Source: a virus. From it: a stretch of 21,111 bases of DNA. The notes under the pieces are model-generated. The model ran no database searches and was not told the origin of the DNA. It was given only the letters and a program-made list of their open reading frames with translations. The position numbers and the translations under genes were made by a program. Shown here in pieces: positions 1 through 12,966 of this stretch (positions are counted from its first letter, which is position 1; every line of letters begins with the position of its first letter). The stretch lies in IMG/VR virus record IMGVR_UViG_3300045970_000318, positions 1-21,111 of that record. One strand, written 5' to 3'.

Positions 1-89
1 ACTTGCTCCTCAATTTTTGCAATATCGAATCCACATTTTTCTAACGAAGGACTAAAACTCTTTCTGCCCCCGATTATAACTGTTTTCAT
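1..89 (-). CDS. N-terminal fragment of a small protein, possibly DUF2325-like (cut by window edge)
   Basis: Only the first 29 codons are inside the window; the frame is open to base 1. The visible protein begins MKTVIIGGRKSFSPSLEKCG and continues with a short helical stretch. A beta strand followed by a GGR turn and then a helix resembles the start of the small Rossmann-like DUF2325 family, but this is a weak recollection-based match and the function is unknown. The start is supported by a weak purine-rich ribosome site (ACAGG) about 9 bases upstream and by a late-type promoter 18 bases upstream. It is the last visible gene of the late block, downstream of the 1565-aa protein. Confidence 0.5.
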   Translation of the reverse strand, partial: MKTVIIGGRKSFSPSLEKCGFDIAKIEEQ

Positions 90-107: not shown

Positions 108-115
108 TATTTATG
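108..115 (-). promoter_or_regulatory. T4-type late promoter octamer (CATAAATA)
   Basis: On the minus strand the octamer reads CATAAATA, one base from the T4 late consensus TATAAATA, and lies 18 bases upstream of the gene starting at 89. The TAA inside the octamer is also the stop codon of the 1565-aa gene, so the promoter is embedded in the end of the upstream coding region. The same octamer precedes the genes at 5403 and 8496. Confidence 0.6.
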
Positions 116-3100
116 CGTTCGACTTTCCCATCGGATCATACAACCAACCTAACTTCTCATCGGTCGAATATGAACCAATAATTGTATCATTTGTTTTAGC
201 TATGTAATTGGCTGAATCTTCCTGTTCGATAGTTGCCCCAAGTTTTTCGGCCGCGGCTTTCCATGCCTTTCCTGATCTAAATTTTACTTCACCATTTTGA
301 CTGTCTTCTTCAATGCCTTGCTCCTCATACATACCGTTTCCTAATTGTTTTTGTAATTTAGGAAGCATGATTTTACTTGTTATTTCACGCCATTTGTTTA
401 TAATTTCTTCACCAACATTTAAGTAGGGGGAACAAACTATAAAGTTTGATTTAATAACATTTGAATCTGTAGATAGGTATTTCGGATCAACTTTATACTT
501 TTTACCTATATAGTCTAGTGCAGTTCTTCCTGCTTGATTGGCAATATCCCTTACTTGACTAATTTCTGCATCTGACAGCCCATAGGTCTTCAAATACTTT
601 ATAATAGTTTTTGCATTCTTTGGAGACGAAGTGTCGTAGATCAATAAGTTTTCGATTTTATCTAAAATCGTCTGACCAGCATGACCTTTTTTGTTAGTCA
701 CAATACCATGTATATCGCTAAATTTGTCCTCTTCGATACCTTGCTCTTCTTTTGGATAATGATATCCTCTAAACTCATAGAAGTTACCCAATGCTTCAAT
801 CTTAGCACAACCGCGTTCCATTGCGTCTGCCGATTTAAACCATGCTTCCTTGGTTACTGCACGTTGTTCTTTTCCTGCAAACACGATGTATCGCACACCG
901 TATGGCTTACCATCGTAGTCATCTTCTGCTACATATGAACTATTCTCTTGACGAGATGTAATTTTGTCAATATACGATTTAGCATCAGCAGGACTACGAT
1001 GTGCAAAACCCCTAATACTGTTTGGCTGATCTTTATCTTGATGCACTACATACTTATTTGCATAAGCATTATCTTTGCTAATATGATATCCATTGTGTGG
1101 CCCAACATAAGAATAGTTACTTTCGTCTTCGGTTACTATTGATTCGTTGCAGTAAAAACCCATCATATCACATGCTGCTTTGCATAACTCATAATACTTA
1201 TGACCTTTTTTAAAAGTATCGCCGCCGGCAATTAAATAACTCACCATATTTGCTACCGTATCTTTATCAAATTTACCTGCAAATTGGTCAGTTAGTTTAT
1301 CGGCAATGTCATCTTGGTACGATTCTGTTACTTGCTCTGCTACATCGGTAGTGATTTTTGTGTCTGCTGAATTTAGTTGTGTTGCATAATCTGAGGCTTC
1401 TTCTTGTGTCCTAAAGATATCACCTTTAGTAGGGTGACTCACAGCTACCCAACCGTTACCTTCACGCTTGGCCACAATGTACTGGTATTGATCATTTTTG
1501 AATTGGTGATCAATCCTATAATTATCGCCAATGAACTCAACTCCAGTACCTCGAGGTTGTTTCATCTCTGTTACGTGTTCTGCTTTATCTTCATTAGATA
1601 CCAAAGAATACTCGATTCCTGCATAACCATTCGCTGCCGAATTATTCACAGCATTATTTAAGTTTTTAATCAACGATGCGATATTTGTCGGCTTACGGTT
1701 GATTTTTGCATTACCTTTCTCATGTTGGTAAGATGCACCAGTTTCTAACGTATATGCAACTTTGTCAATCAACTCGGGCAATGTTCCGACCATAGTAATA
1801 TTACTTCCGGTTCTATGTTTTTCTTTTTTGATGGTATAGATTGCATTTGGCTTTGCTTCTGTTACTTGTGCATCACTTTCTTTAAACTGTGCCAAGCGTG
1901 TTTGTGCTTGCATGGACAATTTAGATTTAACTTGTTTAAATTTATCCCCAGCTTCTTGGAACGAGCCAGTAAATACCGGTGAATCCCCATTGTAAATAGT
2001 TGCTTCAGCACCCATTCTATACAAAGTAAATTTCCCGACTCTATCCATTAATGTTCCTGAAGCGCCTTCATCTACTTCATCTTCTGCTATTTCCATATTG
2101 CTAGATAAATCATACGGATCTTGATTATTAAATTCAGTATGGTCTTTTTCTTCCGAATCTTGGTTATATATTACACCACCTTCAGAATCCATACCCCAAG
2201 TACCAACACATTTTCCATCAATATATGCGGTGCGGAATTCGTGATCGTCATCCCATGGTGCTGATGCTTTACCACCAATTCCGGCAGCTAAGTTCTTAAC
2301 TGCTTTAATCCAGGCACCCATTGTTTGATACTCTTTTTCGCCCAAGTGGTTTACACTCTCAGTTGTAGAACAAGTTTCTTTAGCTACCTCACGCGGCAAA
2401 TAAGTGGTTGGATCTACTATACCCTTTACAAATTCTTTAGTATATCTCCCTGCATTTTTAAAATCATTTTCGTTCGGATTAAATTTAGCATTTTTTGCGG
2501 CATGGATAGAACCTTTTTCCGCAAGAGCCATACCAACTAATCCACCAATTATTGGATCTTCCTCTAAATTTCCTTTATTTTTTGCTTTAATTTTAGCGAG
2601 GATATGTTCTGGCGAGAAGTTAGCAACACTTTCCGAAAATACTTCATCTGCAGAATTGCCCCATTTCATACTAGGATCAATTGCACCTTCTGGACTACCA
2701 TGATTGTCTTTGTCGAAGGCAGCAAAAATATTTCCTTTATTAAATGCAACTGTTCCTCCCGCTGAGTGACGTTTGAAATTACACGCTGGATAAATCTTAC
2801 GACATTTATCATACCATTGATCAAAATCTTTTATACCCATCTCTGAGCCCATGATCGATTGTGAAGCAGGTCTAGTTTTTTGATATGGAGTTTGTTGAAC
2901 TTGTGGGCGCGGATTTAATTCGTCGTTGAATGTGTCGGTTAGATCCTCATCTATATCACCTGTACGGGCGCGGTGTGCGGCTAAATCTGCTGGGCTTACT
3001 ACCACGTCTTCATCATCGTTGTAATTATTAGAACGGTTAGCATCACCATCACCAAAAAGTTCGTCATACTCGTCGCCAAATTCTTCTGTTATTGGACCAA

Positions 3101-4808
3101 AATTATGTGTTGCCCATGTTATGGCAGAAGACTTATCTGCAAACGGACCTTTAACTTCGTAATTTTTGTAATCGCCGTAAATATACCCCATAATGTCATC
3201 GGGAGTAAGATAACTCATATAAGTTGAACTTCCCCAATTGGTTGGTTCCGGTCCAGCAACCGTACTTTCGTGCCATTTGCTACCATTTTTACTAACACAA
3301 CCAATAAAAGTTGTATTTTCTTCTTCGTCGTATAGTGCAACATAGAATTCATCGTTGTTATCTTCGCTATCATAATCTTCTGTAACTTTTTCAACTAATC
3401 CTAAATATTCGGTATCAATTACCTTATAACCGCGTTTTTTGTAATATTGAACTGCACGGTTAGTAGCATCAACTTCATTACCACCTTTAACTTTTATAAT
3501 CTTTTGTATTTCTTCTTTACGCATTGTTACCGCAGTGGCATTTGGATCAGTTACAATTACTGTAATACGGTGCGTTACAGGTTCGTCCTCTTGTTCTACA
3601 TCGTCTACACCGGTAGCACCACTTTCAGCACCTTGGTCGGCAAACATTTCGGTAACCTCGGACGATTTGTTGACGCTTTCATCCCATTGTTTTCCGCCAT
3701 ATCGACCTTCATCATTATCTGCATATGACTTTTTATATTCTGCTATCTCTTTTGGGTCAGTCAACGCGATCCTTTTGCCATCTACCGATTTATTCGGGAT
3801 GCATCCACGATGATAGTGGGCATCTGCACTACCGGCTTCGGCTGCATTACGATTTCTCGAGTCGCCCTCAACCATTTTATTTTTCGTTGAAGATTGTTTA
3901 GATAAAAAATGTTTTAATTTTAATACTGCATTTTTAAATGCAGGATCTGACTTTCTACCCCACGACTCGGTATCTAACGCACCAACTGCATTGATCATAG
4001 ACCGATCATGGGTGTTTGATCGAACATACGAGTCAAGCTTTTTCCATAAGTCAGCATAAAATGGTGTAAACCCGTTATCTTCATACGAGTCATCGCCACC
4101 GTGGCTATCGTAATCCTCTTCTTCGTCACCAGAATAAATTTGATCACGGGCATTACCATATCCATTGTTGTAATAGTCATATTCCAATCTACCCAATGCG
4201 CGAATAGCTTCTCCATACGGAGTTTCTGCTTCTCCCGACAATGGAACATGTTCTTTCCATTTTTTGTCAAACTCTGGATGTTCTACCCATTCAGTTATTT
4301 TTTCTCCCCCAATATCATTAGAATCATTTTTAATTTTTTTATTTTTACGGTTGGCAAAATCCTCATTGACTTTTTTATCTATCTCATCGGCCCAAGATTT
4401 CGAAGATTTCTTACCTTTTTCGACATATTTAGAGTGGTAATCTTTAAGTTCTTTTGCACCAGCTGCTGAAATTTCGCCAGAACTTTTTGTTTCTCGACTA
4501 ACTGTCGGGCAATTTCCATTAGTTTGAATCTTTTTGGCGCCACTACCATTATGACTCACCCATACACAGTGATTACCATTAGCATCATTGCCGTGTCTAT
4601 GTGCTTTATAACCATCTCCTAGATCTAGTGTTTTTCCACCGCTAGATCTAGCGACTTTACCGATTGTACTTTCTTTCAACAATTTCTTACCATTGGCTAT
4701 TGTTTTTGAAGCATTCAAGGTTTTAGATTTTGCTGGTGCTAATCCGTTATTGAGTACTGGCTTACTTTCAATTTTGGAAAGTTTGTCTAAAAGTTTTCTT
4801 AATGGCAT
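111..4808 (-). CDS. Giant multi-module acidic protein; candidate internal-head polyprotein with prohead-protease-type sites
   Basis: This 1565-aa protein is not one I can name. No signal peptide or membrane segment is visible. The N-terminus (MPLRKLLDKL) is a basic amphipathic helix. Residues about 220-245 are a very acidic Asp/Glu/Tyr stretch. From about residue 380 the protein alternates small alpha/beta-looking modules with acidic linkers carrying V/I-x-E: VTE at 385-387, 475-477, 982-984, 1079-1081, 1160-1162 and 1225-1227; ITE at 573-575; IAE at 907-909; VAE at 1293-1295; IEE at 1358-1360 and 1499-1501; LEE at 748-750. T4 gp21 protease cuts after I/L-x-E, for example at IAE or ITE in internal proteins. 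The start is fixed by AAGGA, which overlaps the stop of the preceding gene, 4 bases away. The head-protein role is inferred; a large structural protein with linker repeats is the alternative. Confidence 0.85.
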   Translation of the reverse strand: MPLRKLLDKLSKIESKPVLNNGLAPAKSKTLNASKTIANGKKLLKESTIGKVARSSGGKTLDLGDGYKAHRHGNDANGNHCVWVSHNGSGAKKIQTNGNCPTVSRETKSSGEISAAGAKELKDYHSKYVEKGKKSSKSWADEIDKKVNEDFANRKNKKIKNDSNDIGGEKITEWVEHPEFDKKWKEHVPLSGEAETPYGEAIRALGRLEYDYYNNGYGNARDQIYSGDEEEDYDSHGGDDSYEDNGFTPFYADLWKKLDSYVRSNTHDRSMINAVGALDTESWGRKSDPAFKNAVLKLKHFLSKQSSTKNKMVEGDSRNRNAAEAGSADAHYHRGCIPNKSVDGKRIALTDPKEIAEYKKSYADNDEGRYGGKQWDESVNKSSEVTEMFADQGAESGATGVDDVEQEDEPVTHRITVIVTDPNATAVTMRKEEIQKIIKVKGGNEVDATNRAVQYYKKRGYKVIDTEYLGLVEKVTEDYDSEDNNDEFYVALYDEEENTTFIGCVSKNGSKWHESTVAGPEPTNWGSSTYMSYLTPDDIMGYIYGDYKNYEVKGPFADKSSAITWATHNFGPITEEFGDEYDELFGDGDANRSNNYNDDEDVVVSPADLAAHRARTGDIDEDLTDTFNDELNPRPQVQQTPYQKTRPASQSIMGSEMGIKDFDQWYDKCRKIYPACNFKRHSAGGTVAFNKGNIFAAFDKDNHGSPEGAIDPSMKWGNSADEVFSESVANFSPEHILAKIKAKNKGNLEEDPIIGGLVGMALAEKGSIHAAKNAKFNPNENDFKNAGRYTKEFVKGIVDPTTYLPREVAKETCSTTESVNHLGEKEYQTMGAWIKAVKNLAAGIGGKASAPWDDDHEFRTAYIDGKCVGTWGMDSEGGVIYNQDSEEKDHTEFNNQDPYDLSSNMEIAEDEVDEGASGTLMDRVGKFTLYRMGAEATIYNGDSPVFTGSFQEAGDKFKQVKSKLSMQAQTRLAQFKESDAQVTEAKPNAIYTIKKEKHRTGSNITMVGTLPELIDKVAYTLETGASYQHEKGNAKINRKPTNIASLIKNLNNAVNNSAANGYAGIEYSLVSNEDKAEHVTEMKQPRGTGVEFIGDNYRIDHQFKNDQYQYIVAKREGNGWVAVSHPTKGDIFRTQEEASDYATQLNSADTKITTDVAEQVTESYQDDIADKLTDQFAGKFDKDTVANMVSYLIAGGDTFKKGHKYYELCKAACDMMGFYCNESIVTEDESNYSYVGPHNGYHISKDNAYANKYVVHQDKDQPNSIRGFAHRSPADAKSYIDKITSRQENSSYVAEDDYDGKPYGVRYIVFAGKEQRAVTKEAWFKSADAMERGCAKIEALGNFYEFRGYHYPKEEQGIEEDKFSDIHGIVTNKKGHAGQTILDKIENLLIYDTSSPKNAKTIIKYLKTYGLSDAEISQVRDIANQAGRTALDYIGKKYKVDPKYLSTDSNVIKSNFIVCSPYLNVGEEIINKWREITSKIMLPKLQKQLGNGMYEEQGIEEDSQNGEVKFRSGKAWKAAAEKLGATIEQEDSANYIAKTNDTIIGSYSTDEKLGWLYDPMGKSNA

Positions 4809-4812
4809 ATCA

Positions 4813-5403
4813 TTATTCCTTAATTTTTACTACTTTGGTTTTGTATGGGGATGTGGTGGATTGCTTAATATCGTTAGTAGTTTCTGCTTTTTTAGCAATA
4901 TCTTTAGATGCAAATTCTGTCTTTCTTGATTCTAATTCCTTCAGCAAACTATCTACTCTTTGTTGACCTACTTTGGGCTGACCACCAGATATTGATTCAA
5001 TGTCCTTAGTGAGTAAGGGCTCGTATTTTTTATTAGATTCTTCGTCTTGTGCGCTTTCTTCACGCATAAGTTCCTCTGGCTGGTCTTTTGGAGTGACTAC
5101 AATGTTTGCTGCTGGAATTCTACCATGAGTCGATAATGCTTGTCTAACTTGCTCATCTGTACATGGATAATTTAACGATGCCATAATTAACGATATCTCA
5201 CAAGCACCAAAGCTCGGAAAATCTAAACTGTTATTTTGAATAGGTAATGACTTTGCTTTGCTAATACTTGCTACATCAAAACTCTCAAGGCTATGCTCGA
5301 TTTTATCCATCACATCTGGTGTGATTTCTATACATGCGATTTTTATCCTAAAGTCGTAAGTTTCTTTATTTTCTCTCATGTAATGCGTTAAAGATTTTAT
5401 CAT
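4813..5403 (-). CDS. Conserved hypothetical, candidate head-associated protein
   Basis: This 196-aa protein has an ordered N-terminal domain of about 95 residues, with alternating strands and helices: TYDFRIKIACIEIT, then a helix, then a strand ending in LPIQNNSLDFPSFGACEISL. A low-complexity, charged C-terminal half rich in Glu, Lys and Ser follows. The first residues (MIKSLTHYMREN) loosely resemble the capsid-targeting leader of T4 internal proteins (MKTYQEFIAE). That resemblance, and its position between the probable small terminase and the 1565-aa polyprotein candidate, suggests a head protein, but no function is established. AAAGGA upstream of ATG supports the start, and a late-type promoter lies 27 bases upstream. 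The stop codon is part of the ribosome site of the next gene, suggesting translational coupling. Confidence 0.8.
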   Translation of the reverse strand: MIKSLTHYMRENKETYDFRIKIACIEITPDVMDKIEHSLESFDVASISKAKSLPIQNNSLDFPSFGACEISLIMASLNYPCTDEQVRQALSTHGRIPAANIVVTPKDQPEELMREESAQDEESNKKYEPLLTKDIESISGGQPKVGQQRVDSLLKELESRKTEFASKDIAKKAETTNDIKQSTTSPYKTKVVKIKE

Positions 5404-5457: not shown

Positions 5458-6000
5458 TTATTGGTTTGCTTTTTGATTAGCTTCGGCATTAGCTGCCAGT
5501 ACCTCTTTTAATAGGGTATTCCTGTCAAGTATCATCCCTTCTCCGGAAATTGTTTCTTTTTCTGGGTCTTTTGCTTCTTTATTCTTTGTCGCCACATCTA
5601 ATCTAGCTTTCTGCAACTGTAAGCTAATCATCTTCAATTTTTTGTCCATTTTAGCCGTTTTGGCTGTGATGGCATGCCCAAGCAATGCGGTAGCTGATTG
5701 TAATATCGGACCACTGAATCTTGGATCTACATTCATACTAAGCTCCATCATATTTTTAAAGCTATCTTCTGCTAATTTTGCCAAACTGTCCATTTCTGCA
5801 TCGCTGGCTTCTAAATCGCTTACTGTGGGTAGAGCAAAATCTATTTTGTCCATAACGGTATCGGTAGCTTGTAGCATATCTTTTGATTCTTCAATTGTTG
5901 AATTATACTCGGCTATTTCTTCGGTTGAAATTTCTGGTTCAGGATCGAACATGCTTGGGCCTGGTGGTAGCTGAAATAAATCTTCTAATTTTTTAGACAT
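5458..6000 (-). CDS. gp16: Probable small terminase subunit (T4 gp16-like)
   Basis: The 180-aa, largely helical, acidic protein fits the layout of T4 gp16 (164 aa): a disordered acidic N-terminus, a central helical hairpin (about residues 68-135, with a DPRF turn between helices and a long Lys-rich second helix), and a C-terminal segment ending in a leucine-rich helix (TLLKEVLAAN). gp16 forms rings that recognise the DNA and stimulate the large terminase gp17 during packaging. Unlike in T4, gp17 is not adjacent; the neighbours are gp4 and a head-associated candidate. The start has AAAGGAAG upstream and a perfect late promoter 16 bases ahead. Identification is by pattern, not by search; another coiled-coil head or scaffold protein is the alternative. 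Confidence 0.65.
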   Translation of the reverse strand: MSKKLEDLFQLPPGPSMFDPEPEISTEEIAEYNSTIEESKDMLQATDTVMDKIDFALPTVSDLEASDAEMDSLAKLAEDSFKNMMELSMNVDPRFSGPILQSATALLGHAITAKTAKMDKKLKMISLQLQKARLDVATKNKEAKDPEKETISGEGMILDRNTLLKEVLAANAEANQKANQ

Positions 6001-6043: not shown

Positions 6044-6472
6044 TTATTTTGAACCAGCGAAGAGCTGATGCTCAGTTAGAACGCGAAAGGTAAGCCCTTT
6101 ATCTGCACAAAAAATACGAGCAGATGCCCATTTAGCCATATTGACTACAGCCGCGGCTTGATTTCTCATACCTTTGGCATTTTCTAATACTGCTTGCCCT
6201 GCAGGTTTGATTTCAATAATCTCTGCATGAGTAACTCCATCTTTGTCTTGGTATATGATTAGAAAATCTGGAACATAGGTTGTTTTTTTCCCTGTTAGCG
6301 GATTGTGATAGGGGATACGGATTGACTCGCTGGACCATTGCAGAATAGAAGGATGATTATCTAAGAACGTCATAAACGCGGTTTCCCAGGAACTTCTGGC
6401 ATATGGTAATCCTTTGCCAATATATTTTTCTGGGTGACGAGGGGTAAATATCGCTTGGTGGTATTTTGCCAT
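6044..6472 (-). CDS. gp4: Head completion protein gp4 (TnsA-like nuclease fold)
   Basis: This 142-aa protein matches T4-type gp4 (also called gp50/gp65) along its length: RHPEKY near residue 14, the RSSWE helix at about 27-31, LQWSSESIRIPY at about 43-54, PDF at about 67-69, the EIKPAGQ strand, a helix with MAKW, and the C-terminal TFRVLTEHQLF. The spacing of E31, D68 and the EIKP segment follows the TnsA/PD-(D/E)xK-like nuclease arrangement. In T4 the protein acts after DNA packaging to make full heads competent for tail joining. The start overlaps the upstream gene's stop as TAATG, and AGGAG lies 12 bases upstream, so it is probably translated by coupling. Confidence in the family is high; whether it cleaves DNA here is not shown. 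Confidence 0.9.
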   Translation of the reverse strand: MAKYHQAIFTPRHPEKYIGKGLPYARSSWETAFMTFLDNHPSILQWSSESIRIPYHNPLTGKKTTYVPDFLIIYQDKDGVTHAEIIEIKPAGQAVLENAKGMRNQAAAVVNMAKWASARIFCADKGLTFRVLTEHQLFAGSK

Positions 6473-6840: not shown

Positions 6841-8496
6841 TTAGGTTCCTTCACCCCATGCCCCAGATTTTGCTAATTCTTCCGTAACAGACTGCTCAGT
6901 TTGGCCGTTTGGAAATTGATTAACAAAATCGGATGCTTTGGCATTTGCAGAAGCTACCGATCCACCAGAAGATAATGGTATACCTTGGCCAGTAGCCAAT
7001 GTCCCAACTTGCGGTACTGATACCGAGGCAAACGGATTTGCTCCCCCACTTAATATCGATTTGGCTATATTTGTGGCTTCGGTTTTTGCCATATTCCCTA
7101 AATTGGCGCCTTTTAAATTATTTGCGACCTTAGCCAACCCTAATACTCCGGCTGTACCACTAGTTGATAATCCACCGATTGCGGCACCTAATCCGCCAGT
7201 CCCAAATAGTGTTCCCCCACCGCCACCAGCAACCGTCAATGGACTCGGAGTTTTATCATAATTCGGACCTTGAGCAAAACCATCGATAACTGATTTTCCA
7301 TTCACGTCCGATACTGTGCCCATACCATACGATATCGATTCATATTCTATCGTCATAGTATGCGATAATGTACCAGAACCTTCCGATGCATTATGCTCTC
7401 CGTGACCAAATGAGGAAATGATTGGATTTATAATAGCATACTCACTGAACTGTTTATTATGCAAACTGTAGATATAGATATTATTTATATATGGTGGTGG
7501 ATTTGGCATGATGGTATTTGTTGGTATACCATTTACCGAATTACGTATGGTATAACCCCAATCTGCATATTTAGAATCTCTAGGCCTAAACATTTCAGTA
7601 TGCATTGAGTTCATCGCAGTTTTATCTATTGATGTGCTATTCCCACCAGCATTAGTAGTAGCATAGTCGCTAGATCTATAATAATAGGTATAGTAATCAT
7701 ACCAAAAATTGCGGATTATATTTGCCGAATCATCGTGAAACGTAATTGTAATTGGATCATAATCTATCTTAGATTGAATTATATGCGGTCTATTATATGC
7801 ATTATATTTTTTAGTTTCGATTTTAAATTTCGGCAAACCCACTTGTTTAACTAACATCCCTATTTCTTTTTGATTTTGATACATGCCATTAAACATATTA
7901 TTTTGTATGACTAACGGATTAAAATCAAATAATACATAAAATAGATATGAACTTTTTGGTGCTCTAGCATAATTATTTGAGCCAAATATTTTTGAAGCGT
8001 GATTCCAACTTACTAGATTATTATGAGAAATTAACGAATTCAATGCTTGTTGCCAAAATCCATTGTTTGCTGGTCCAGATGTTGGTTGCGGCGCAGATGC
8101 TTTTGCCAACGGAATTTGTTCTCTGACTGCCGCCTGGGCTGCTTGAATTTCTTTAATTGTTGATACTGCGGCCGGTGTCGAAGTAGTACTTGCCGAATTG
8201 GATTGAAATGCTTTTATTGTTTCTATCTCTACTACTAGAGCAGACAAATTCTCGGCTGCATTAGTTTGCATTGCGGATTTTAGATCCGCCTTCGATTTAA
8301 CTAATTTTGCATTTGCTACCTGTACTGTTGCAGCAACCGCATTTAGATTATCTTGGGCTATCTGAATTGTTGCTGCATTTCCTGATGACTTAGCCGAAGA
8401 TAATGCCGCATAAGCAGATGCTAAATTTATATTAGCCTGTTGTTGCTCCGCTAACGCTATTTCTTCATTTTTTTGTGCTTGTAGAATAGTTGTCAT
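6841..8496 (-). CDS. Tail-tube-fold structural protein (gp19/gp54-like), candidate tube initiator or baseplate protein
   Basis: The 551-aa protein has three parts. Residues 1-130 are Ala/Gln-rich and strongly predicted by eye as long helices or coiled coil. Residues about 180-392 look like a gp19-type tube domain: YLFYVLFDFNP, VKQVGLPKFKIETKKYN, a strand pair with DPITITFHDD, a WYDYYTYYY helix, and IINPIISSFGHGEHNASEG. Residues 405-551 are Gly/Ala/Ser-rich. In T4, gp48 and gp54 cap the baseplate and start the tube, and gp54 shares this fold, so I infer a related role; similar proteins are common in marine T4-like phages. It follows gp19 after a terminator. No Shine-Dalgarno precedes the ATG, which lies 6 bases after a late octamer. 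An in-frame TAA just upstream rules out an earlier ATG. Confidence 0.75.
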   Translation of the reverse strand: MTTILQAQKNEEIALAEQQQANINLASAYAALSSAKSSGNAATIQIAQDNLNAVAATVQVANAKLVKSKADLKSAMQTNAAENLSALVVEIETIKAFQSNSASTTSTPAAVSTIKEIQAAQAAVREQIPLAKASAPQPTSGPANNGFWQQALNSLISHNNLVSWNHASKIFGSNNYARAPKSSYLFYVLFDFNPLVIQNNMFNGMYQNQKEIGMLVKQVGLPKFKIETKKYNAYNRPHIIQSKIDYDPITITFHDDSANIIRNFWYDYYTYYYRSSDYATTNAGGNSTSIDKTAMNSMHTEMFRPRDSKYADWGYTIRNSVNGIPTNTIMPNPPPYINNIYIYSLHNKQFSEYAIINPIISSFGHGEHNASEGSGTLSHTMTIEYESISYGMGTVSDVNGKSVIDGFAQGPNYDKTPSPLTVAGGGGGTLFGTGGLGAAIGGLSTSGTAGVLGLAKVANNLKGANLGNMAKTEATNIAKSILSGGANPFASVSVPQVGTLATGQGIPLSSGGSVASANAKASDFVNQFPNGQTEQSVTEELAKSGAWGEGT

Positions 8497-12568: not shown

Positions 12569-12606
12569 AAAAAAAGTGACGTTTGGCATGCACTTTATCA
12601 AGTGCA
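12569..12606 (-). terminator. Candidate minus-strand terminator with two alternative hairpins
   Basis: On the minus strand AAAGTG (12578-12573 region complement CACTTT) can pair across a 12-base loop to give a stem running directly into a stretch of U residues (the seven A bases at 12569-12575). The same middle segment can instead pair upstream in a perfect 7-bp hairpin with a 4-base loop (12589-12606). Either would sit between minus-strand transcripts arriving from the kinase/gp13 unit and the gp18 promoter. The plus-strand version lies just upstream of the zinc-ribbon gene. The function is inferred from shape only. Confidence 0.4.
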
Positions 12607-12608
12607 AT

Positions 12609-12616
12609 GCTAAATA
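12609..12616 (+). promoter_or_regulatory. Candidate plus-strand late promoter octamer (GCTAAATA)
   Basis: GCTAAATA is the same octamer found ahead of gp14 at 17140-17147. It is separated from the ATG at 12622 by 5 bases, so the message would start at or next to the start codon. It differs from the T4 consensus TATAAATA at the first two bases. Confidence 0.45.
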
Positions 12617-12621
12617 ACAGT

Positions 12622-12966
12622 ATGCTAGAACGAATAATTTGCCCATGCTGTGAGATCAAACTGGTTGCCATAAATTACTATAAGAATGGTAAGGTATATT
12701 ACCGAAAGAGATGCGATCAATGCACCAGAAAGAAAAAATCACCAAAACCACCTGCTTGGGTTAGGTCCGGTTATAAGAAGAAGGAAAAATGCGAACGATG
12801 CGGAAAATTGATAAAATTTGAAGAGGCTGCGGTAGTATATCACATTGACGGAAATATAAAGAATGCCGACAAATTTAATTTGAAGACGATTTGCTTGGTG
12901 TGCGAGGTTGAGTTAAATCATAGTAATACCGGGTGGAAACCAGGAAGATTGGCTCCGGATATTTAG
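12622..12966 (+). CDS. Small zinc-ribbon / HNH-like protein
   Basis: With the ATG at 12622 the protein is 114 aa. It has CPCC at 7-10 and CDQC at 31-34, a Lys-rich linker, then CERC at 57-60, YHIDGN at 73-78 and ICLVC at 90-94. The order CxxC, HxDxN, NL, CxxC is that of HNH/zinc-ribbon proteins, although the usual tandem His is Tyr-His. I recognise similar conserved small proteins in marine T4-like phages, but whether they cut DNA is unknown to me. A TTG (12583) and an ATG (12607) lie upstream in frame. I prefer 12622 because family members begin just before the first CxxC and because it follows a late-type octamer. No Shine-Dalgarno is visible. It is the only plus-strand gene in this block and its stop overlaps the convergent kinase gene by 4 bases. 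Confidence 0.75.
   Translation: MLERIICPCCEIKLVAINYYKNGKVYYRKRCDQCTRKKKSPKPPAWVRSGYKKKEKCERCGKLIKFEEAAVVYHIDGNIKNADKFNLKTICLVCEVELNHSNTGWKPGRLAPDI

Follow-up and report, generated by a model that had tools for sequence, protein, structure and literature searches.

A modular 1565-residue protein beside the head genes of a giant T4-like phage as a candidate substrate of the prohead protease

The closest described counterparts of the protein considered here are the internal head proteins of phage T4. IPI, IPII, IPIII and Alt share with it, as we propose, N-terminal targeting to the head, cutting by the prohead protease gp21 and packaging in the core (PMC9026906). In T4, gp21 cuts the internal head proteins after L/I-x-E, and the IPs vary strongly between phages (PMC9026906). 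They are, however, made from separate small genes and carry an N-terminal propeptide (Alt also a C-terminal one), whereas many modules stand in one chain here. A second group of T4 substrates, the core proteins gp22, gp67 and gp68, undergo many [LI]xE cuts and are destroyed, and their fragments are expelled from the head (PMC9026906).

Two further systems are comparable in part. The inner-body and ejection proteins of phiKZ and SPN3US likewise belong to giant phages with much internal protein and undergo multiple cleavages at Glu sites, and multiple proteolysis of some virion proteins has been described in SPN3US and PaBG. In the phiKZ and SPN3US proteins, however, the multiple cuts remove one long propeptide from one mature protein, and both the motif (A-x-E in SPN3US) and the phage lineage differ (PMC10052503). 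Polyvalent proteins (Iyer et al. 2017) are large multidomain phage proteins, predicted to pass into the host together with the DNA and likened to polyproteins (PMC5512222). They contain recognisable enzymatic domains, often with an embedded metallopeptidase, whereas the 1565-aa protein gave zero domains above cut-off against Pfam and PHROGs, effector and peptidase domains included, and its processing would take place in trans by the prohead protease. We do not regard it as polyvalent in the sense of PMC5512222, the searches having revealed neither an enzymatic nor a peptidase domain. In the literature searched, which covers the field in part, we found no polyprotein described as processed by the prohead protease of a T4-like phage, and we treat novelty as provisional.

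The window, by which we mean the whole stretch of DNA analysed, is a complete IMG/VR record of 21,111 bp and a piece of a larger virus. It encodes a sheath, two tube-like proteins, a head-closure nuclease, the neck protein Ad2 and a sheath stabilizer, a gene set that identifies it as part of a giant T4-like myophage; the nearest relatives of its sheath are those of PA5oct, Atu_ph07 and Phosso. The phage's own protease and capsid genes fall outside the 21-kb fragment. The genes that define the locus are the following.

111–4808, minus strand: 1565-aa modular protein, proposed head-targeted polyprotein, placed by synteny of its slot with PA5oct gp281 and IMG/VR loci
4813–5403, minus strand: 196-aa protein, phrog_14802 'virion structural protein', adjoining the slot upstream and conserved
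5458–6000, minus strand: 180-aa conserved neighbour, phrog_16202
6044–6472, minus strand: head-closure/head-completion nuclease, T4 gp4-like (phrog_218, E 2e-37; TnsA-like N)

The 180-aa protein presumably resembles a terminase small subunit. The 1565-aa gene is a single open frame of 1565 codons with an ATG start and an AAGGA Shine-Dalgarno sequence 8 nt upstream, and its product has a mass of 174.2 kDa and a pI of 5.3. An IMG/VR scan with the whole protein found no direct relatives, nor did IMG/VR scans with the 196-aa neighbour alone or with one of the modules described below (m4), and searches of phage records with residues 905–1162 and 1163–1564 gave no convincing match.

The genomic position of the gene is more informative. 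PA5oct has, in this order, two tube genes and genes for a structural protein, head closure, a hypothetical protein, structural gp282, structural gp281 and TerL. The window 196-aa protein is homologous to gp282, and the series tube, second tube, 121 aa, gp4, 180 aa, 196 aa and slot matches PA5oct gene for gene up to gp281. The occupant of the PA5oct slot, gp281 (YP_010678933.1, 498 aa), is annotated ESI-MS/MS, i.e. it was found in virions. It resembles the 1565-aa protein in its position, its acidity and its [VI]xE linkers, but it is 498 aa long and the two have no significant sequence match. Paralogy of modules m6, m8 and m16 with gp281 was also considered and failed on unbiased comparison.

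An IMG/VR scan with the head-closure protein as query yielded 80 loci. The order of genes around the slot is kept in tens of IMG/VR loci, and of the 80 loci most that are long enough have at least one protein between the 196-aa homologue and TerL. These slot proteins are very variable in length, up to 1059 aa, and are made of recurring short modules. We conclude that the slot is the home of highly variable, fast-evolving modular proteins in giant T4-like phages, a family defined here. The 1565-aa gene lies directly downstream of the 196-aa phrog_14802 gene (4813–5403, then 111–4808), and its protein has one module, m3, in common with the slot proteins of L080 and L084. The window ORF that follows it (1–89, minus strand; gene start MKTVIIGGRKSFSPSLEKCGFDIAKIEEQ, cut by the contig end) reads MKTVIIGGRKSFSPSLEKCG... 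and is DprA/SLOG-like by eye; TerL is therefore not adjacent to the 1565-aa gene. It may sit past the end of the contig; in relatives TerL is often preceded by at least one additional ORF.

The content of the slot is exchangeable: giant phages of rhizobia carry there an unrelated beta-repeat protein annotated 'autotransporter' (Atu_ph07 gp112, L002 32995–35229; L007 32635–34752).

The relatives carry the machinery for cleavage. An S77/gp21 prohead protease and gp23 were present in 6/6 isolate genomes checked, and the protease was found in 9 of 14 contigs, many of them incomplete. In 15/15 relatives LxE closes the gp23 propeptide just before the conserved mature start, the cut itself being placed by comparison with T4. 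The gp22 scaffolds of these phages served as an internal positive control, because gp22 is cut repeatedly in T4 (PMC9026906): they contain [VILM]xE[ASG] 176 times against 32.5 expected (5.4x, z=24), with no Asp excess. The same motif occurs 324 times against 120.5 expected in 86 deduplicated slot proteins (2.7-fold, z=18). Control motifs in the slot proteins stayed near or below expectation, both at P1 (D 0.78x, K 1.21x, Q 1.17x) and at P3 (A 0.68x); an aromatic residue at P3 or an altered spacing removed most or all of the enrichment, and neighbouring head genes reached 1.36x. When each flank context was counted once, 248 motifs remained against 120, with controls below 1.

Position and conservation point in the same direction. 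Across homology-defined modules, site density per residue was 0.047 at module starts and 0.040 at module ends, compared with ~0.02 inside. The motif is kept at 53% of aligned positions in related slot proteins versus 30–42% for comparable motifs whose flanks are similarly identical (D variant 30%, K variant 38%), and where the flanks are at most one-third identical it is retained at 44% versus 17% (D) and 19% (K). Such a pattern is what protease sites in linkers would be expected to look like. QGVAE, considered as a family-wide linker, showed no enrichment among slot proteins (3 vs 1.3).

The preliminary description of this DNA had placed folded-looking modules between the sites of the 1565-aa protein. 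Independent homology bears out such boundaries for residues 171–533 only, where four modules alternate with sites as follows.

3897–4298, minus strand: module m2, residues 171–304, predicted helical domain (homology and AF2)
3867–3875, minus strand: MVE314, candidate site between m2 and m3, unlisted before
3660–3839, minus strand: module m3, residues 324–383, GSADAHY...QWDE
3648–3656, minus strand: VTE387 site, 4 residues past m3 and before m4
3390–3593, minus strand: module m4, residues 406–473
3378–3386, minus strand: VTE477 site, between m4 and m5
3210–3347, minus strand: module m5, residues 488–533

Module m2 is 51% identical to L128 and 40% to L129; m3 matches the slot proteins of L080 (phmmer E 9e-9) and L084 (3e-5); m4 matches Synechococcus phage BUCT-ZZ01 UTS51990.1 (phmmer E 3.5e-16); and m5 matches L203 (tblastn E 2e-6), where it comes immediately after a GVAEGG linker. 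All four turn up in unrelated contexts, and MVE314, VTE387 and VTE477 lie between them. Except at their borders, m2, m4 and m5 have no internal sites; the placement of sites outside m2–m5 has p=0.06 with strict borders and p=0.004 with borders trimmed by 3 residues.

The most telling of the four is m2. In some 45 other phages it is an ordinary small gene, and in L128 it is found within a modular protein of 797 aa whose gene lies downstream of TerL. In L129 and L130 it is a separate small gene between the prohead protease (gp21) and scaffold/capsid (gp22/gp23) genes; a short hydrophobic segment precedes m2 at the N-terminus, and a 107-aa gene beginning MKLIQELLGLNQPVQVTEG adjoins this gene. The AlphaFold check proposed earlier for the intervals gave, for m2, a confident helical domain (AF2 with 36 sequences, pLDDT 82). 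Foldseek of this model against the PDB gave no convincing match (best E 1.9); two viral models were found at E 0.03–0.08. With VIA-align the top Z was 7.1, to a chain of influenza nucleoprotein, a value that would be expected between unrelated helical folds. AF2 of residues 905–1565 from the single sequence reached pLDDT 39, too poor for motif placement.

Two small genes located between the prohead protease and scaffold/capsid genes (L129 2407–3236, L130 1434–2260) resemble T4 internal-protein genes, in that a hydrophobic N-terminus precedes VTEG or DES, and are good candidates for new internal head proteins. In another lineage, L203 (1–7374) carries an operon of modular proteins whose recurring linkers are different ones ([ND]DD[DE]MFA and QGVAE) and whose N-termini resemble MRAKEFLLEY; the slot-protein design seems to exist here in a parallel version.

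The 1565-aa protein begins with the following segment.

4749–4808, minus strand: N-terminal amphipathic helix MPLRKLLDKLSKIES, residues 1–20, proposed head-targeting segment

A pattern for such a helix occurs in 37/54 first slot ORFs, compared with 3/243 controls and 0/43 other slot ORFs; since it was written after reading the slot N-termini, that of the 1565-aa protein included, the rate in slot proteins is inflated while the control rate is unaffected. The 1565-aa protein fits the pattern (LLDKLSKI); its helix is followed by KIES, and its first LxE is LKE46. A second motif, L..LAG[IL], ends the gp22 scaffolds of giant T4-like phages (e.g. PA5oct gp22, L019 1–1049) and is found inside slot proteins 42 times against 0.7 expected. 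Its presence in both suggests a shared core-binding or targeting peptide. It is absent from the 1565-aa protein.

This likeness to gp22 bears on the strongest alternative, in which the protein would be an accessory scaffold of the prohead core that helps to build or size the core before being shredded by the prohead protease, so that the fragments exit the head and the sites serve removal. Slot proteins carry both the C-terminal L..LAG[IL] of gp22 and its type of site signature, many of them appear disordered and acidic, and in T4 the core proteins are broken into several pieces, most of which leave the head (PMC9026906). However, gp22, gp67 and gp68 are destroyed, whereas the slot proteins are modular and their sites gather at module edges and not throughout. 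Within the 1565-aa protein, m2 is a confidently predicted domain free of internal sites, m2–m5 are found in other proteins too, m2 in the form of separate phage genes, and the dense sites of T4-type core proteins are absent, site numbers being at chance level versus 5.4x in the gp22s. The protein also lacks the LAG motif, and the PA5oct slot protein is still seen in virions. We consider the scaffold explanation unlikely for the 1565-aa protein.

The sites of the 1565-aa protein itself require a separate assessment. The preliminary description had listed eleven V/I-x-E motifs, and every one lies at the residue given, on the minus strand. Besides VTE387 and VTE477 they are the following.

3084–3092, minus strand: ITE575 site
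2082–2090, minus strand: IAE909 site
1857–1865, minus strand: VTE984 site
1566–1574, minus strand: VTE1081 site
1323–1331, minus strand: VTE1162 site
1128–1136, minus strand: VTE1227 site
924–932, minus strand: VAE1295 site
729–737, minus strand: IEE1360 site, in the linker EEQGIEED
306–314, minus strand: IEE1501 site, in the same linker, EEQGIEED, as at IEE1360

The spacings reported from residue 1162 onwards (65, 68, 65, 141 and 64) are correct. The near-regularity read into them stands in part: the ~65-residue step is partly a product of selection, because further motifs had been omitted, some of them inside modules (IAE357). These comprise VNE149, ITE173, IAE357, IDE621, VDE914, VAE1158 and VGE1467 of the [VI]xE class, LxE at 46, 473, 750, 764, 824 and 1012, and MVE314. 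The intervals have no significant similarity to one another, so the spacing does not reflect a tandem repeat, and internal tandem repeats in the 1565-aa protein are ruled out.

An excess of the motifs over chance holds for VTE and not for the [VI]xE class as a whole. The protein contains 18 [VI]xE against 13.4 in shuffles (p=0.10, chance level) and 24 [VIL]xE against 19.0; the [VILM]xE total is near chance, at ~1 site per 60 residues. No tripeptide is more over-represented in it than VTE (6 copies, 0.37 expected; p=0.002 after a look-elsewhere correction over all tripeptides), and [VI][TAE]E occurs 14 times against 3.0 in shuffles, a class picked after the data were seen. Acidic linkers had been claimed for the eleven sites, and their 21-residue surroundings exceed those of other Glu in acidity (-4.3 against -2.4, p=0.014); by the TOP-IDP disorder proxy the eleven sites are no more disordered than other Glu (p=0.16). 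A, S or G stands at P1' in 5 of the 26 [VILM]xE, and the residue there is mostly D, M or E. The [VILM]xE[ASG] enrichment of the family is thus missing from the 1565-aa protein, whose own enrichment is in VTE. As the A/S/G enrichment is a family average that this protein does not follow, we infer that it is a diverged member of the slot family at best; the protease of this phage may have its own P1' preference.

The chance-level [VI]xE count, together with a P1' unlike that of the family, would fit a multidomain virion protein that stays uncut and is packaged or assembled whole, its V/I-x-E motifs being incidental or simply part of acidic linkers. A large protein packaged unprocessed does exist in the N4 virion RNA polymerase (PMC5512222). 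Against this stand the rank of VTE as top tripeptide (p=0.002) and, at the level of the family, the enrichment, boundary placement and conservation of the sites, and we judge an uncut protein to be improbable. Least credible, and in our view very improbable, is a modular protein with an early or cytoplasmic role whose gene lies in the head cluster by chance: most m2 relatives are indeed small genes that stand in non-T4 contexts and lack a head-targeting N-terminus, but the 1565-aa gene is located among head and tail genes, the N-terminal helix is common to slot proteins, the PA5oct slot occupant was detected by MS, and m2 lies in the prohead operon of L129/L130.

The polyprotein reading of the preliminary description is sustained in several of its parts, namely a head-associated family, a protease in the relatives, sites enriched at module edges and a module that exists as a separate gene. 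We therefore favour, with some confidence, a modular prohead-core or internal head protein that is cut in its acidic linkers and releases small modules. Cleavage of the 1565-aa protein at several sites by a gp21-type protease is likely; the protein is probably cut in the virus particle because the linkers of its relatives are loaded with prohead-protease sites. Delivery of many modules is a possibility that we put forward tentatively. On the fate of the pieces the evidence is divided: edge-placed sites, the site-free m2, m4 and m5, the reuse of modules and the PA5oct MS identification favour retention and injection of modules, whereas the LAG motif in common with gp22 favours pieces leaving the head, for some family members.

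From sequence we infer cleavage of the 1565-aa protein, retention of pieces and delivery, which could proceed as follows. The N-terminal amphipathic helix would probably bring the protein to the prohead core, where an active gp21-type protease would cut after Glu in exposed acidic linkers at [V/I/L/M]-x-E, the sites in the 1565-aa protein being chiefly V/I-[T/A/E]-E. Several small modules of roughly 7–16 kDa would be freed. Those modules that are compact and free of internal sites would remain with the DNA and could go on into the host, and linkers and unfolded parts would be lost from the head. By analogy, the protein would work most like fused T4 internal proteins with several gp21 sites. 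Under the polyprotein reading, a hypervariable cassette beside the terminase genes would collect modules, some of which are otherwise separate phage proteins, and one N-terminal helix would target the whole chain to the prohead. True head polyproteins, with ~ten mature internal proteins in equal numbers injected together against host defences, are conceivable, though we hold this doubtful.

Were this so, many host-takeover or anti-defence proteins would be delivered from one gene at a fixed ratio; they would share a single head-targeting signal, the capsid protease would release them, and packing as a polyprotein would replace what T4 makes from separate genes. This would explain why such giant proteins resist annotation, would make the hypervariable giant-phage locus worth screening for anti-defence functions, and would suggest a way of loading T4-type heads with several cargos. 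The site signature offers a means of predicting prohead-protease substrates from sequence.

Two other genes of the window deserve mention. The second tail-tube-like protein (6841–8496, minus strand; 551 aa) is coiled over a long N-terminal stretch and has a VTE at residue 539, 12 residues from its C-terminus. Between the sheath and dNMP kinase genes, on the opposite strand (12583–12966, plus), a 127-aa zinc-binding ORF with an HNH-like look may encode a homing endonuclease; in PA5oct such an enzyme is encoded on the other side of the sheath gene.
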